Below, piece after piece: positions 30,443-34,956 of a DNA stretch of 64,000 nt (the first letter of the stretch is position 1; each line of letters starts with the position of its first letter). A program made the translations under genes and the position numbers. The notes below the pieces were generated by a model that made no database searches, was not told where the DNA came from, and worked only from the letters and a program-made list of their open reading frames with translations. The DNA is from Paracoccaceae bacterium (GTDB lineage Bacteria; Pseudomonadota; Alphaproteobacteria; Rhodobacterales; Rhodobacteraceae), in the NCBI GenBank assembly GCA_020446815.1, contig JAGRDY010000031.1, forward strand, positions 105,362 to 169,361, written 5' to 3'.

Positions 30443-30716
30443 TGCGCATGTCTCCGAATCCGGGGCAGGGATTTGCACCTCCATTTAGAGAATCGTGCCG
30501 CTTCTGTCACCTGCCCGTTCTGGATAGGCCGTTTGGCGCCCCGGTGAAACCCTTGCCGGATGATTTTTCACACCGCCAAGCGGCATCGAAGCGGTGCAGG
30601 CCGCTGGTATAATTCAGGTTCAGCGGCTTCTTGCCAAAGGGTGCAGTCGTGTTGCGCGGCTATGAGTGGGCGTGTATCACCGAAGTCGACAGGGAATTGC
30701 ATTTGAGGGGGCAGCA

Positions 30717-31979
30717 ATGCGTCGAGTGGTGGTCACTGGTCTGGGGATGGTAACGCCGCTGGCTTGCGGTGTCGAGGAAACCTGGTCGCGCCTGATTGCC
30801 GGGCAGTCGGGCGCGGGGCCGATCACCCGGTTCGATACGGCCAACGTGGTGACGAAATATGCCTGCGAGATCCCGCTTGGCGACGGGACGGATGGCAGTT
30901 TCAATGCCGATGACTGGATGGAGCCGAAGGACCGGCGCAAGGTCGATGACTTCATCCTTTACGGGATGGCTGCCGCGACCCAGGCGGTGCGGGATGCCGG
31001 CTGGGAGCCCGAGGACGAACAAAGCCGCTTGCGCACCGGTGTGATGATCGGGTCGGGGATCGGCGGATTGACGTCGATCGCCGAGACCGCGGTGCTGATC
31101 AGGGAAAAGGGCCCGAAGCGGGTTTCGCCGTTTTTCATTCCGGGTGCGCTGATCAATCTGGTCTCGGGGCAGGTGTCTATCCGGTTCGGGTTCAAGGGCC
31201 CAAATCATGCCGTCGTCACCGCCTGTTCTACGGGGGCCCACGCGATCGGCGATGCGGCGCGGCTGATCCAGTTGGGTGATGCAGATGTCATGATCGCGGG
31301 CGGCACGGAAAGCCCGATTTCCGAGATCGGCATAGCGGGCTTCAACGCCTGCAAGGCGCTGTCGACCAAACGCACCGACGACCCCACCAGGGCCAGCCGC
31401 CCCTATGACGCGGACCGCGATGGTTTCGTGATGGGCGAAGGCGCCGGGGTGGTCGTTTTGGAGGAATATGAACATGCCAGGGCGCGCGGCGCCAGGATCC
31501 ATGCCGAAGTGCTGGGCTATGGTCTGTCGGGCGACGCCTACCACATCACCGCGCCGTCCGAGGACGGCGATGGCGGCTATCGCTCGATGCAGGCCGCGCT
31601 GAAGCGGGCCGCGATCACGCCTGACCGGATCGACTATATCAACGCCCATGGCACGTCGACCATGGCCGACACGATCGAGCTTGGCGCGGTCGAGAGGCTG
31701 ATGGGCGACGCGGCGGCAGCGGCGACGATGTCGTCGACCAAATCTTCTGTCGGGCATCTTCTGGGGGCAGCGGGGGCTGTCGAGGCAATTTTCTGCATGC
31801 TGGCGATCCGCGATCAGGTGGCCCCGCCGACCATCAATCTCGACAATCCCGCGGTTGCATCGAAGCTCGATCTGGCGCCCAACAAGGCGGTGGAGCGCAA
31901 GATAGATGTCGCGCTGTCCAACAGCTTCGGCTTTGGCGGAACCAATGCTTCGCTGATATTGGGGCGGGTGAGCGGTTGA
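30717..31979 (+). CDS. fabF: Beta-ketoacyl-ACP synthase II
   Basis: Fatty-acid elongation condensing enzyme, 420 aa. Catalytic Cys170 in VTACSTGAHA, His311 in NAHGTST and His347 in SVGHLLGAAG form the Cys-His-His triad. The start at 30717 follows GAGGGGG; the frame open from 30666 is not used. A TATAAT hexamer lies at about 30607, with no convincing -35. The stop overlaps the mltG ATG (TGATG). Confidence 0.96.
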   Translation: MRRVVVTGLGMVTPLACGVEETWSRLIAGQSGAGPITRFDTANVVTKYACEIPLGDGTDGSFNADDWMEPKDRRKVDDFILYGMAAATQAVRDAGWEPEDEQSRLRTGVMIGSGIGGLTSIAETAVLIREKGPKRVSPFFIPGALINLVSGQVSIRFGFKGPNHAVVTACSTGAHAIGDAARLIQLGDADVMIAGGTESPISEIGIAGFNACKALSTKRTDDPTRASRPYDADRDGFVMGEGAGVVVLEEYEHARARGARIHAEVLGYGLSGDAYHITAPSEDGDGGYRSMQAALKRAAITPDRIDYINAHGTSTMADTIELGAVERLMGDAAAAATMSSTKSSVGHLLGAAGAVEAIFCMLAIRDQVAPPTINLDNPAVASKLDLAPNKAVERKIDVALSNSFGFGGTNASLILGRVSG

Positions 31980-33139
31980 TGTGGCGGCATGTCGCCTCGA
32001 ACTTCCTGACCATTGCCATCCTGCTGCTGGTGGCGGCGGCGGGGGTGGTCGCCTGGGGGCAGCGCCAATATACCGGGCCCGGCCCGCTGGCCGAACCGAT
32101 CTGCTTTCAGGTCAGGAAGGGGGCGAATCTCAAGTCCGTGGCCAGTGACCTTTCGGGGAGGGGCGCCATCAGATCGGGCTATATCCTCAAGGTAGGGGCG
32201 GATTACCAGGGCAAGGCGGGTTCGATCAAGGCGGGGTCGTATCTGATCGCGCCGAATGCCTCGATGGCCGAGATCGTCGAGGCCATATCGGGGACCGGAC
32301 AGTCGACCTGCGGCACCGAAGTCAACTACCGGATCGGCGTTCAGGCCAGCGAGATGCTGGTGCGCGAGCTTGATCCGGCAACCAACCGCTATGTCGAAGT
32401 CGCGAAATTCGACCCGGCGGAGGAGGCGGCCCCGCAAGCCTATGTCGATATTGCCGATGACATAGATGTGCGGTTTCGCGTGACGCTGGCAGAGGGGGCG
32501 ACGAGCTGGCAGGTGGTCGAGGCGCTCAAGCGGGCGGAGTTCCTTGACGGCGAGATCGGCACGGTGCCGCCGGAAGGCATGCTGGCACCGGACAGCTATG
32601 AAGTGGCGCGCGGCCTGAGCCGTTCGGAATTGCTTGACCGGATGCAGGCGCGGCAGGCGGCGGTTCTGGATGCGCTGTGGGCCAACCGCGCCGATGGCCT
32701 GCCCTATGCTTCGCCCGAGGAAGCGCTGATCATGGCGTCGATCGTGGAAAAGGAAACGGGCCTGCCCGAGGAGCGGCCCAGGGTCGCGAGTGTTTTCATC
32801 AACCGCCTGAAGCAGGGGATGAAATTGCAAACCGACCCCACCGTCATCTACGGCCTGACCAAGGGGCAGGGCGTGCTTGGCCGGGGGTTGCGCCAGAGCG
32901 AGCTGCGCGGACGTACCCCTTACAACACCTATGTGATCGACGGTTTGCCCCCGACGCCGATTGCCAACCCCGGCAGCGACAGCATTGCCGCGGTGCTGAA
33001 CCCCGAGGTGACGGATTTTCTGTTCTTCGTGGCAGACGGTACGGGCGGCCATGCCTTTGCCAGGACATTGGCCGAACACAACGACAACGTAGCCAGATGG
33101 CGCGCGTTGGAAGCCGAACAGCAGGGCGCGGCGAACTGA
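31979..33139 (+). CDS. mltG: Endolytic peptidoglycan transglycosylase MltG (YceG)
   Basis: Inner-membrane enzyme that cleaves nascent glycan strands and ends chain growth, 386 aa. One N-terminal transmembrane helix (LTIAILLLVAAAGVVAWG), a LysM-like region (ICFQVRKGANLKSVASDL), then the YceG domain with catalytic Glu257 in IMASIVEKETGLPEER and RLKQGMKLQTDPTVIYG. ATG 31979 is chosen; a TTG one codon earlier is possible. In rhodobacters fabF-mltG commonly lies upstream of the GTA cluster (recalled, not checked). Confidence 0.94.
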   Translation: MWRHVASNFLTIAILLLVAAAGVVAWGQRQYTGPGPLAEPICFQVRKGANLKSVASDLSGRGAIRSGYILKVGADYQGKAGSIKAGSYLIAPNASMAEIVEAISGTGQSTCGTEVNYRIGVQASEMLVRELDPATNRYVEVAKFDPAEEAAPQAYVDIADDIDVRFRVTLAEGATSWQVVEALKRAEFLDGEIGTVPPEGMLAPDSYEVARGLSRSELLDRMQARQAAVLDALWANRADGLPYASPEEALIMASIVEKETGLPEERPRVASVFINRLKQGMKLQTDPTVIYGLTKGQGVLGRGLRQSELRGRTPYNTYVIDGLPPTPIANPGSDSIAAVLNPEVTDFLFFVADGTGGHAFARTLAEHNDNVARWRALEAEQQGAAN

Positions 33140-33207
33140 GCCGGGGCCGGGTTAACAAGAGATTGACGGTGCGTCCTCCAAGGTATTGATACAGCTTGGT
33201 TTTTTGC

Positions 33208-33236
33208 TTGACTTGGCGAACGCTCCAGGCTATACC
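33208..33236 (+). promoter_or_regulatory. Sigma-70-type promoter upstream of the GTA cluster
   Basis: TTGACT (33208-33213), a 17-bp spacer, and TATACC (33231-33236). The predicted start point is about 33243, which falls on or next to the ATG of a 32-codon ORF. By hexamers and spacing it is the best promoter match I noticed in the GTA region; activity is inferred. Confidence 0.65.
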
Positions 33237-33243
33237 TTCGGAC

Positions 33244-33342
33244 ATGCTAGAAGAAGTGGGCAAGCGGCCCGGGGGCGACCCCGAGCCGCTTTTTCGTTTC
33301 GCTCGTGCGGATTGGCATGAGAGGCGGGCGCATACTCGATGA
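33244..33342 (+). CDS. Putative leader peptide ORF overlapping GTA g1
   Basis: 32 codons, starting MLEEVGKRPGGDPEPLFRF and ending HERRAHTR. Its ATG lies about 7 bases after the -10 element, so the mRNA would be nearly leaderless. The stop (33340-33342) overlaps the g1 ATG (33339) as ATGA, the same coupling used within the GTA operon. Codons 7 to 17 form an intrinsic terminator hairpin, so a translating ribosome would melt it. No homologue is known to me. The open frame could be chance over this short length, but promoter position, terminator position and stop overlap together make it worth listing. Confidence 0.45.
   Translation: MLEEVGKRPGGDPEPLFRFARADWHERRAHTR
33263..33294 (+). terminator. 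Intrinsic terminator/attenuator before GTA g1
   Basis: Stem 33263-33274 pairs with 33279-33290: AGCGGC/GCCGCT outer and CGGGG/CCCCG inner with one C-A mismatch, closed by a GCGA (GNRA) tetraloop and followed by TTTTT (33290-33294). It lies about 20 to 50 bases downstream of the predicted start point and 45 bases before g1. It could terminate a roughly 50-nt RNA or act as a conditional attenuator of the GTA operon. Confidence 0.8.
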
Positions 33343-33662
33343 CAGCGAGAGTTACGGTTGAAGAGCCATCAATCAAGACATTGATCCAGCAGACGGATGA
33401 TCTGTATTTCGTCATCGCCACGGAAATTTCCGCGGCGACCGAAAAAATCAAACAGGGCGAGTTCGATAATCTGAAGGATGCGACGAGATCCTTGAAGGAT
33501 TTGCGCATGGCGTTTCAGCTTGCCGTGGAAGAAAGGGCGAAACTTGCCAAATTCGACAAAGAAAAAGCCGGCGTCGTTTACGACTATGCGCTCGACTTCG
33601 ACGCTGCCCGGGCTGAGATCGGCCGCCGCCTGGCTCTCTTGCGCGAAGCAGGAGACGGTTGA
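33339..33662 (+). CDS. GTA g1, small terminase subunit (TerS-like)
   Basis: 107 aa, mostly helical and charged (SIKTLIQQTDDLYFVIATEI ... NLKDATRSLKDLRMAFQLAVEERAKLAKFDKE). First gene of a complete RcGTA-like cluster. In Rhodobacter capsulatus the protein at this position (g1) was shown to be the GTA small terminase; here the call rests on position, size and helix content. Its own ribosome-binding site is weak (GAGAGG about 15 bases upstream), which fits coupling to the upstream mini-ORF. It overlaps the TerL frame. Confidence 0.82.
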   Translation: MTARVTVEEPSIKTLIQQTDDLYFVIATEISAATEKIKQGEFDNLKDATRSLKDLRMAFQLAVEERAKLAKFDKEKAGVVYDYALDFDAARAEIGRRLALLREAGDG

Positions 33663-34956
33663 CGAATTCCTTGGCGGCCTGAGCGACGAGACCTTGCTGG
33701 CACTGCCCTGGTTATTCGAATTCTGGGCATTGCCGCATCAGCTTGCACCGGCAGGGTCGTGGAAGACCTGGATCATCATGGGGGGCCGGGGGGCCGGCAA
33801 GACCCGCGCCGGGGCCGAGTGGGTTCGATCGCAGGTTGAAGGAGCCAGACCGCTTGATGCGGGGGTGGCCGGGCATGTCGCGCTGGTCGGCGAGACGATC
33901 GAGCAGGTTCGCGAGGTGATGGTCTTTGGCCCGAGCGGAATTCTGGCGTGTTCACCGCCCGACCGGAAGCCGGTCTGGGAAGCGGGGCGCAAGCGGCTGG
34001 TCTGGCCCAACGGGGCGGTGGCGCAGGTGTTTTCGGCCCATGAGCCGGAAAATCTGCGCGGCCCGCAGTTTGACGCTGCCTGGGTGGATGAGCTGGCGAA
34101 ATGGAAAAAGCCGCAGGAAACCTGGGACATGCTGCAATTCGCGTTGCGGATGGGCGTTCATCCGCAGCAGGTCGTGACGACAACGCCGAAGAACACCAGC
34201 GTGTTGAAGGCGATCCTGAACAACCCGTCGACGGTAATGACGACGGCGCCGACCGAGGCCAACAAGGCCTATCTTGCCGCATCGTTTCTCGAGGAGGTGC
34301 GCAGCCGCTATGCCGGAACGCGGCTGTCGCGGCAGGAACTGGACGGCGTCCTTTTGGAAGATGTCGAGGGCGCGTTATGGGCGTCGGCCGGGCTGGAAGG
34401 ATTGCGACGCAGCGCACCGAAAGCGTTCAGCCGTGTCGTCGTCGCGGTGGATCCGCCCGTCACCGGCCATGGCGGATCGGATGAATGCGGGATCATCGTG
34501 GTCGGGGCGCTGACCGAGGGACCGCCGCAGGACTGGCGCGCCTGGGTGCTGGAGGATGCGAGTGTGGCGGGCGCATCCCCGATGGTCTGGGCGAAGGCTG
34601 CGGTCGCGGCGATGGAACGGCATGGCGCGGAGCGGTTGGTGGCGGAAGTCAACCAGGGCGGTGACATGGTTGAAACCGTGATCCGACAGGTCGACCCGCT
34701 GGTGGCCTTTCGCGGTTTGCGGGCGTCGCGGGGCAAGGCGGCGCGGGCCGAACCGGTCGCCGCCCTGTACGAACAGGGCCGGGTCTTTCACTGCGGTGAT
34801 CTGGGCGGGCTGGAAGATCAGATGTGCCAGATGACCACCCGCGGGTATCAAGGGCGGGGCAGCCCGGACAGGGTTGATGCGCTGGTCTGGGCATTGACCG
34901 AAGTGATGGTGCGGCCGGCGGGCAGGTTTCATCGGCCCGCGGTGCGCAGTCTCTGA
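33586..34956 (+). CDS. GTA g2, terminase large subunit
   Basis: DNA-packaging ATPase/nuclease. Walker A GGRGAGKTRAGAEW, Walker B-like FDAAWVDELAKW, adenine and coupling motifs (VTTTPK), and nuclease Asp residues (VAVDPP, NQGGDM, SPDRVDALVWAL). The family match begins about LLALPWLFEFWALPHQL (33694). The frame is open further upstream with no ATG, GTG or TTG between 33586 and 33694. I therefore use ATG 33586, which overlaps g1 by 77 bp; TTG 33694 is the alternative. Predicted to cut host DNA and fill GTA heads without sequence specificity. Confidence 0.9.
   Translation: MRSTSTLPGLRSAAAWLSCAKQETVDEFLGGLSDETLLALPWLFEFWALPHQLAPAGSWKTWIIMGGRGAGKTRAGAEWVRSQVEGARPLDAGVAGHVALVGETIEQVREVMVFGPSGILACSPPDRKPVWEAGRKRLVWPNGAVAQVFSAHEPENLRGPQFDAAWVDELAKWKKPQETWDMLQFALRMGVHPQQVVTTTPKNTSVLKAILNNPSTVMTTAPTEANKAYLAASFLEEVRSRYAGTRLSRQELDGVLLEDVEGALWASAGLEGLRRSAPKAFSRVVVAVDPPVTGHGGSDECGIIVVGALTEGPPQDWRAWVLEDASVAGASPMVWAKAAVAAMERHGAERLVAEVNQGGDMVETVIRQVDPLVAFRGLRASRGKAARAEPVAALYEQGRVFHCGDLGGLEDQMCQMTTRGYQGRGSPDRVDALVWALTEVMVRPAGRFHRPAVRSL

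Follow-up and report, generated by a model that had tools for sequence, protein, structure and literature searches.

The gene transfer agent (GTA) operon in a window of 64,000 nucleotides from a Paracoccaceae bacterium (the whole stretch of DNA that was analysed) is preceded by a conserved leader, in which a promoter is followed by a terminator-like hairpin and by covarying RNA folds reaching the first gene, g1. The leader occurs as one strong copy in its genome, and a GafA-like protein is encoded in the same genome. With a probability of roughly 60%, the leader is read here as a promoter-proximal terminator checkpoint, which would be overridden by GafA in the manner of Q or GafZ. An earlier note had seen promoter and hairpin as a pair placed to switch the GTA operon, and this pair proved to be conserved; the translated leader peptide proposed as the switch found no support.

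GTA production kills the producing cell, and leaky GTA expression is therefore costly. If the checkpoint reading holds, a widespread Rhodobacteraceae leader terminator would name the target of GafA, for which a role in antitermination in Rhodobacter capsulatus has been raised only as a possibility, no terminator being known in that group (PMC11150451). No leader terminator of Rhodobacter GTAs was found described in Rfam or in the titles and abstract openings of open-licence papers, a coverage that makes this no proof of novelty. The leader is a structured RNA matching no family in the Rfam release searched: the window gave no family at the gathering score, and a loose threshold yielded a single chance-level match on the other strand.

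Sequence and folding of the leader

The window carries an RcGTA-type cluster, in which models for portal, prohead protease, major capsid, head-tail connector, tape measure, hub and megatron were matched in order, the RcGTA designation belonging to the tape-measure model; the large terminase gave a Pfam match. For g1, Pfam gave no match, and its role as small terminase was taken from PMC6854486. The genes fabF and mltG (30666-33139) lie directly upstream in the same direction, and apparently the same neighbours were seen by eye in a distant relative (L203). No 16S rRNA match was obtained in the window's assembly (G000), which says little, since the same search matched only 9 of 14 control genomes and failed in the other 5.

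Searches for relatives of g1 gave 32 loci on public genome contigs, many from metagenome bins; one was also present in 22 of 22 genus genomes (the window's own included) and in 337 of 394 family genomes. Upstream DNA was compared at 180 loci, namely the window, 31 from public contigs, 21 from the genus, 27 from the family and 100 further loci. These are the better-scoring ones, lower-scoring or unlisted family g1 matches and two at contig ends (G059, G079) having been left out, and a covariance-model search of whole genomes was therefore run as well. A leader profile built on 50 of the 180 loci recovered 174 of them at E <= 1, of which 172 passed E < 1e-5; 162 of these leaders were unique. Outside these 162 are eight loci failing E < 1e-5 (L071, L141, L152, L165, L170, L176, L178 and L180); rows were also dropped for matches at contig ends (L002, L035), for the window itself (L034, L060) and as duplicates (L072, L081).

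Table 1. Features of the GTA leader in the window
Feature	Position	Strand	Basis
-35 element TTGACT	33208..33213	+	sequence; TTGA[CT] in expected position in 161/162 leaders, a self-selecting count, as this search also served as the anchor
Spacer motif GCG-AA-CG-C-TC, proposed site of the GafA C-terminal domain	33216..33225	+	conservation; likeness to the GCGCCCG half of the GafZ element
-10 element TATACC, weak, last T missing	33231..33236	+	TA within one base of position in 154/162 leaders
Predicted transcription start	33243..33244	+	distance to the -10 only
Mini-ORF, 32 codons, judged chance, outside the conserved device	33244..33342	+	leader comparison
Outer stem, 5' arm (GAAGTGGG)	33253..33260	+	covariation; flank-swap test
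Core GC-rich terminator-like hairpin, GCGA loop	33262..33289	+	sequence, folding, conservation, covariation
T-run (UUUUU) after the core hairpin	33290..33294	+	at least four T in 153/162 leaders
Outer stem, 3' arm (TTTTTCGTTTC), complete only once transcription passes the T-run	33290..33300	+	consensus fold, covariation, flank swap
Second hairpin CTCGTGC / GCATGAG, one base after hairpin 1	33302..33321	+	consensus fold, covariation
g1, GTA small terminase, first operon gene	33339..33662	+	homologue searches; role from PMC6854486

The claimed promoter, with its 17-base spacer between -35 and -10, is present in the window and conserved across leaders (Table 1). Within the spacer, CG-N2-CG with both CG at fixed offsets from the -35 was kept in 137 of the 162 unique leaders and was missing in 25, and the motif reaches an information content of up to 1.85 bits per column. 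Ordinary sigma-70 promoters are not known to carry a motif of this kind in the spacer. The T-run was kept in 134 of 137 leaders with the motif vs 19 of 25 without it (Fisher p = 0.0005, kinship not corrected). The pattern TTGACN4CGN2CGNTC occurs at 8 places in the genome, the GTA promoter included, and once in a backwards control. Immediately after the predicted start, GCTAGAAG is conserved, and that it might serve as a promoter-proximal pause is only a guess.

In R. capsulatus, an interval 76-125 bp before g1 is bound by the C-terminal part of GafA and contains the -10 and the RNA-seq start (PMC6363796), and the same part of the protein binds a fragment holding -35, -10 and start (PMC9638019). 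The equivalent interval of the window, 33214-33263, spans spacer, -10 and start, and by analogy the spacer motif is a candidate GafA binding site.

The core hairpin reads AAGCGGC-C-CGGGG-GCGA-CCCCG-A-GCCGC, followed by TTTTT. The loop GCGA is of the GNRA type, as are the loops of 108/162 leaders, against a shuffle mean of 7.15. Hairpins of -10 kcal/mol or below with a T-run were present in 153/162 unique leaders, compared with 7/162 shuffled leaders (one shuffle each) and 18/162 stretches immediately preceding the promoter; 9/162 leaders lack four consecutive T. The strong GNRA-capped hairpin with five T of the earlier note is thus found in the window and is conserved. The T-run begins 42-50 nt from the predicted start in 151/162 leaders, typically at about 47 nt. 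When 106 nt of the leader were folded alone, -44 kcal/mol was obtained (z = -1.93), and 9 of 200 shuffles were at least as stable. The first hairpin resembles a stop signal built into the leader and is predicted to terminate transcription in vivo. A simple consensus scan of 32200-34200 returned no promoters and did not list the core hairpin, which is attributed to its rules (T as last -10 base, and an unbroken stem with a short loop that a T-run follows directly); it gave one other terminator-like site at 32773.

Folding of 30 leaders by RNAalifold extended the hairpin outward, with the conserved GAAGUGGG paired with the U-run and the bases following it, and added a second hairpin, so that the consensus is one nested long hairpin and a second one. 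In that 30-leader alignment, which was not structure-fitted, the outermost ten pairs showed one-sided changes only or none. When a selected set of 100 leaders was aligned to the model, changes on both sides were seen in 20 of 25 pairs, including 5/8 in the outer stem and 5/7 in hairpin 2, with the reservation that model-fitted alignments lean towards their structure, that kinship was not removed and that the weakest sources of a preceding 100-source search had been left out. Sliding the partners against each other in this alignment lowered the paired cells from 96% to 40-58%. The preceding search had given a right-strand match in 97/100 sources, with two extra wrong-strand rows and none from L146, L167 and L183, and in its alignment 21/25 pairs had changed on both sides. 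Within the long hairpin, the U of the T-run is retained opposite G, with GU in 87/99 at one pair.

Independently of any alignment, the native combination was more stable than 3' flanks swapped among leaders in 103/153 cases (p = 2e-5, kinship not removed) and in 46/60 of leaders with an unusual 5' segment. The effect of the flank is modest, since a shuffled flank still pairs, with a mean of 6.8 pairs vs 8.0 in the native one and at least 4 pairs in 143 vs 152 of 153.

Hairpin 2 overlaps GAGAGG (33319-33324), the most Shine-Dalgarno (SD)-like sequence before g1. In silico, the SD-like core was unpaired with a mean of 0.44 in 86 leaders, and with 0.60 in those with a replaceable 5' arm once this arm was replaced; in the window, replacement raised the value from 0.24 to 0.55. 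The effect is modest, and according to these models hairpin 2 may gate g1. A pairing of the 5' CATGC with GCATG of hairpin 2 was dropped, because leaders with AAG at the start position keep GCATG, as judged by eye.

Two further loci were inspected by eye. A distant family locus (L205) keeps core and T-run, and its outer stem is replaced by GACACG/CGTGTC. In a family member (L141), hairpin 2 is kept, whereas a clear -35 and a T-run are missing.

The proposed checkpoint and its rivals

According to the checkpoint reading, polymerase starting from the GTA promoter would, without GafA, meet an intrinsic terminator with its T-run about 47 nt on, and a short RNA would be released. GafA, a fused form of Caulobacter GafY and GafZ, would bind around the promoter and the -35/-10 spacer and load onto polymerase, resulting in read-through as with lambda Q or GafZ. 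In the read-through RNA, the T-run would be folded into the longer hairpin and the second hairpin would be added over the bases of g1 that are most SD-like; after read-through and refolding, the operon would be transcribed. The presence of the hairpin in 153/162 leaders, the T-run at 42-50 nt in 151/162, the spacer motif in 137/162, the joint retention of motif and T-run, the GafA-like protein and the single strong leader copy in the genome, the binding of R. capsulatus GafA to the equivalent interval and the precedent of GafZ make this the best reading. Against it count the 25/162 leaders without CG-N2-CG, the 9/162 without a four-T run, the lower number of family genomes matching the leader model under strict filters (250) than with g1 (337), the place of the Caulobacter terminator behind the first gene, the missing right half of the Caulobacter palindrome and the outer stem, which needs read-through and which a plain Q-type model does not call for. 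As an extension, the read-through fold of zipped T-run and hairpin 2 could make GafA-modified polymerase resistant to termination over the operon of about 14 kb, turning the terminator into an antiterminator, and this is considered unlikely.

The earlier note had instead proposed a translation-coupled attenuator, in which ribosomes on a 32-codon mini-ORF cover the hairpin and reach g1. The window does hold such an ORF, with its ATG at 33244 and a TGA (33340-33342) overlapping the g1 ATG at 33339 as ATGA, and codons 2-8 vary most at third positions among leaders. However, the start position is ATG in only 87/162 unique leaders, is AAG in 58 and lacks ATG in 75 altogether, and the ORFs of ATG leaders range from 4 to 86 codons. 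The frame of a downstream CATGAG mark relative to the ATG is uniform (21/20/23 across the three frames, p = 0.90) in the 64 of 87 ATG leaders in which the mark is recognisable. The codon-position changes are much alike where there is no start codon (57/36/74 in 57 AAG leaders vs 77/47/107). In the genus, 15/22 leaders including the window keep the ATG, and the overlap with g1 as ATGA is found in the window only, L048 and L050 having TGATG; 39/87 ORFs do end in ATGA, and where they are 24-26 codons long, a length seen in the genus leaders, this is the ATGA within CATGAG and not the one at the g1 start. In L056, from the genome whose g1 is most similar to that of the window (88-90% identical), an in-frame TGA cuts the ORF after 11 codons and the hairpin is retained. 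Lost starts and shifting frames beside a conserved hairpin are the outcome that the earlier note had named as rejecting the peptide. A conserved translated short ORF with a fixed frame over the hairpin was thus not found among the leaders; ATG loss, random frame, spread of lengths and a bias independent of the start codon lead to the conclusion that the mini-ORF is chance, riding on a conserved RNA. The ORF and its overlap therefore exist in the window as had been described, without being maintained in relatives, and a peptide attenuator is highly improbable.

The alternative of the earlier note was a chance ORF beside a promoter-terminator pair that makes an sRNA of about 50 nt, which would act in trans. 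The arrangement fits an sRNA, and the predicted transcript opens with a dozen bases that are conserved without being paired. Conservation is, however, not confined to the terminated transcript and runs past the terminator towards g1, Rfam has no family for the window at the gathering score, and the plain sRNA reading is weakened by covariation between the conserved 5' segment and bases beyond the T-run, which a terminated RNA would not contain; it is very unlikely. Somewhat less so, and still doubtful, is that the hairpin insulates the operon from read-through out of the co-directional fabF-mltG, with GafA merely strengthening the promoter enough to leak through. The simple scan lists no terminator-like site between the end of mltG (33139) and the GTA promoter, and a T-run hairpin just upstream of the promoter was found in only 18/162 loci. 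An insulator would be expected before the promoter, though, whereas the hairpin begins no more than 20 nt into the predicted transcript and the outer stem uses early transcribed bases. The put RNA of phage HK022 has two stem-loops about one base apart right after the promoter and acts on polymerase, and in read-through transcripts the two hairpins of the leader could be an antitermination RNA of this kind. Two covarying stem-loops one base apart directly after the promoter, and an outer stem that forms only once the T-run is passed, speak for it. The T-run kept as U facing G suits a terminator instead, and a literature search for the put geometry found nothing; an RNA acting in this way is improbable. 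The checkpoint reading is preferred over these.

The GafA candidate and related systems

A 381-amino-acid protein with DUF6456 (E 1.1e-63) is encoded elsewhere in the window's genome, as a single ORF outside the window (L187:1468-2613, minus strand); the gene beside it is presumably lipoyl-synthase-like. DUF6456 is taken to be the domain carried by GafZ, and a homologue of the antiterminator is in this sense present in the genome. The domain family was found in 61/61 sampled genomes of the order, those listed being all from the window's family, and, in line with GafZ carrying the domain, Caulobacter vibrioides was the only match among 14 control genomes. Pfam found no N-terminal domain in the 381-residue protein. 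Judged by the end residue of a construct, GafA of R. capsulatus has 382 amino acids (PMC9638019). From its domain, a length near that of R. capsulatus GafA and the domain assumed for GafZ, the protein is taken as the probable GafA. The word "terminator" is absent from the main text of the GafA papers PMC6363796 and PMC9638019.

The nearest precedent is the PgtaT promoter of Caulobacter with GafY/GafZ, which is alike in a related operon and activator and in a terminator to be passed; there, antiterminator activity of GafZ was shown, and its element, GCGCCCG-CTGGCGC, lies between -10 and -35 (PMC11150451). The left half of this palindrome, GCGCCCG, fits the conserved GCG-N2-CG of the leader, whereas no conserved counterpart of the right half is seen here. 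The terminator differs as well: terGTA of Caulobacter consists of three 150-bp repeats after the first gene, and a short intrinsic-type hairpin stands in the leader before g1 here. Caulobacter uses GafY and GafZ, in contrast to one activator protein and a covarying outer stem in the leader described here. Lambda pR'-Q and AlpA of Pseudomonas aeruginosa share the order of promoter and terminator and a loading element inside the promoter, and in PMC11150451 GafZ is reported to have no sequence or structural likeness to the Q and AlpA proteins. Unlike these systems, the leader here is a conserved folded RNA reaching the first gene. As far as its paper title goes, the GTA of Bartonella (BaGTA) is under antitermination control, as is proposed here. 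The leader has in common with HK022 put RNA two adjacent stem-loops directly after the promoter; it differs by the terminator-like core and the T-run within hairpin 1 and by the existence of a protein activator.

Distribution

When whole genomes were searched under strict filters, 250/394 family genomes matched the covariance model at E <= 0.01, whereas 337 have g1. In the window's genome, the leader scored at E 3.6e-22, and the next best match, at another site, at 0.2. Named carriers include Paenirhodobacter, Sinirhodobacter, Thioclava, Frigidibacter and Maritimibacter. In a plasmid collection, five Paracoccus records matched, none over more than 80% of the query, and no phage record matched. 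A search of 195 genomes, among which R. capsulatus may be absent, did not recover the leader of that species. In a sample of the class, the covariance model R1 with strict filters matched 2/289 genomes, both from the window's family; this negative is weak and does not prove a restriction to the family, since at least three family genomes in the sample (G221, G300, G092) were unmatched too.

A rough look upstream of the large terminase was taken at 30 loci, 27 of them from other families. In one of the latter (L215), a partial look-alike was seen, in which a promoter-like TTGAC-CG-N2-CG stretch before the large terminase is followed some 200 bases further along by a T-run hairpin; this may be a related arrangement or may be chance. 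A weaker promoter-like match without a T-run hairpin was seen in L214. Neither was seen upstream of the large terminase in L206, from the window's own family. Two loci with g1 and without the leader (L165 and L178) have upstream stretches that are quite different from it and similar to each other, and these are perhaps another type of control.
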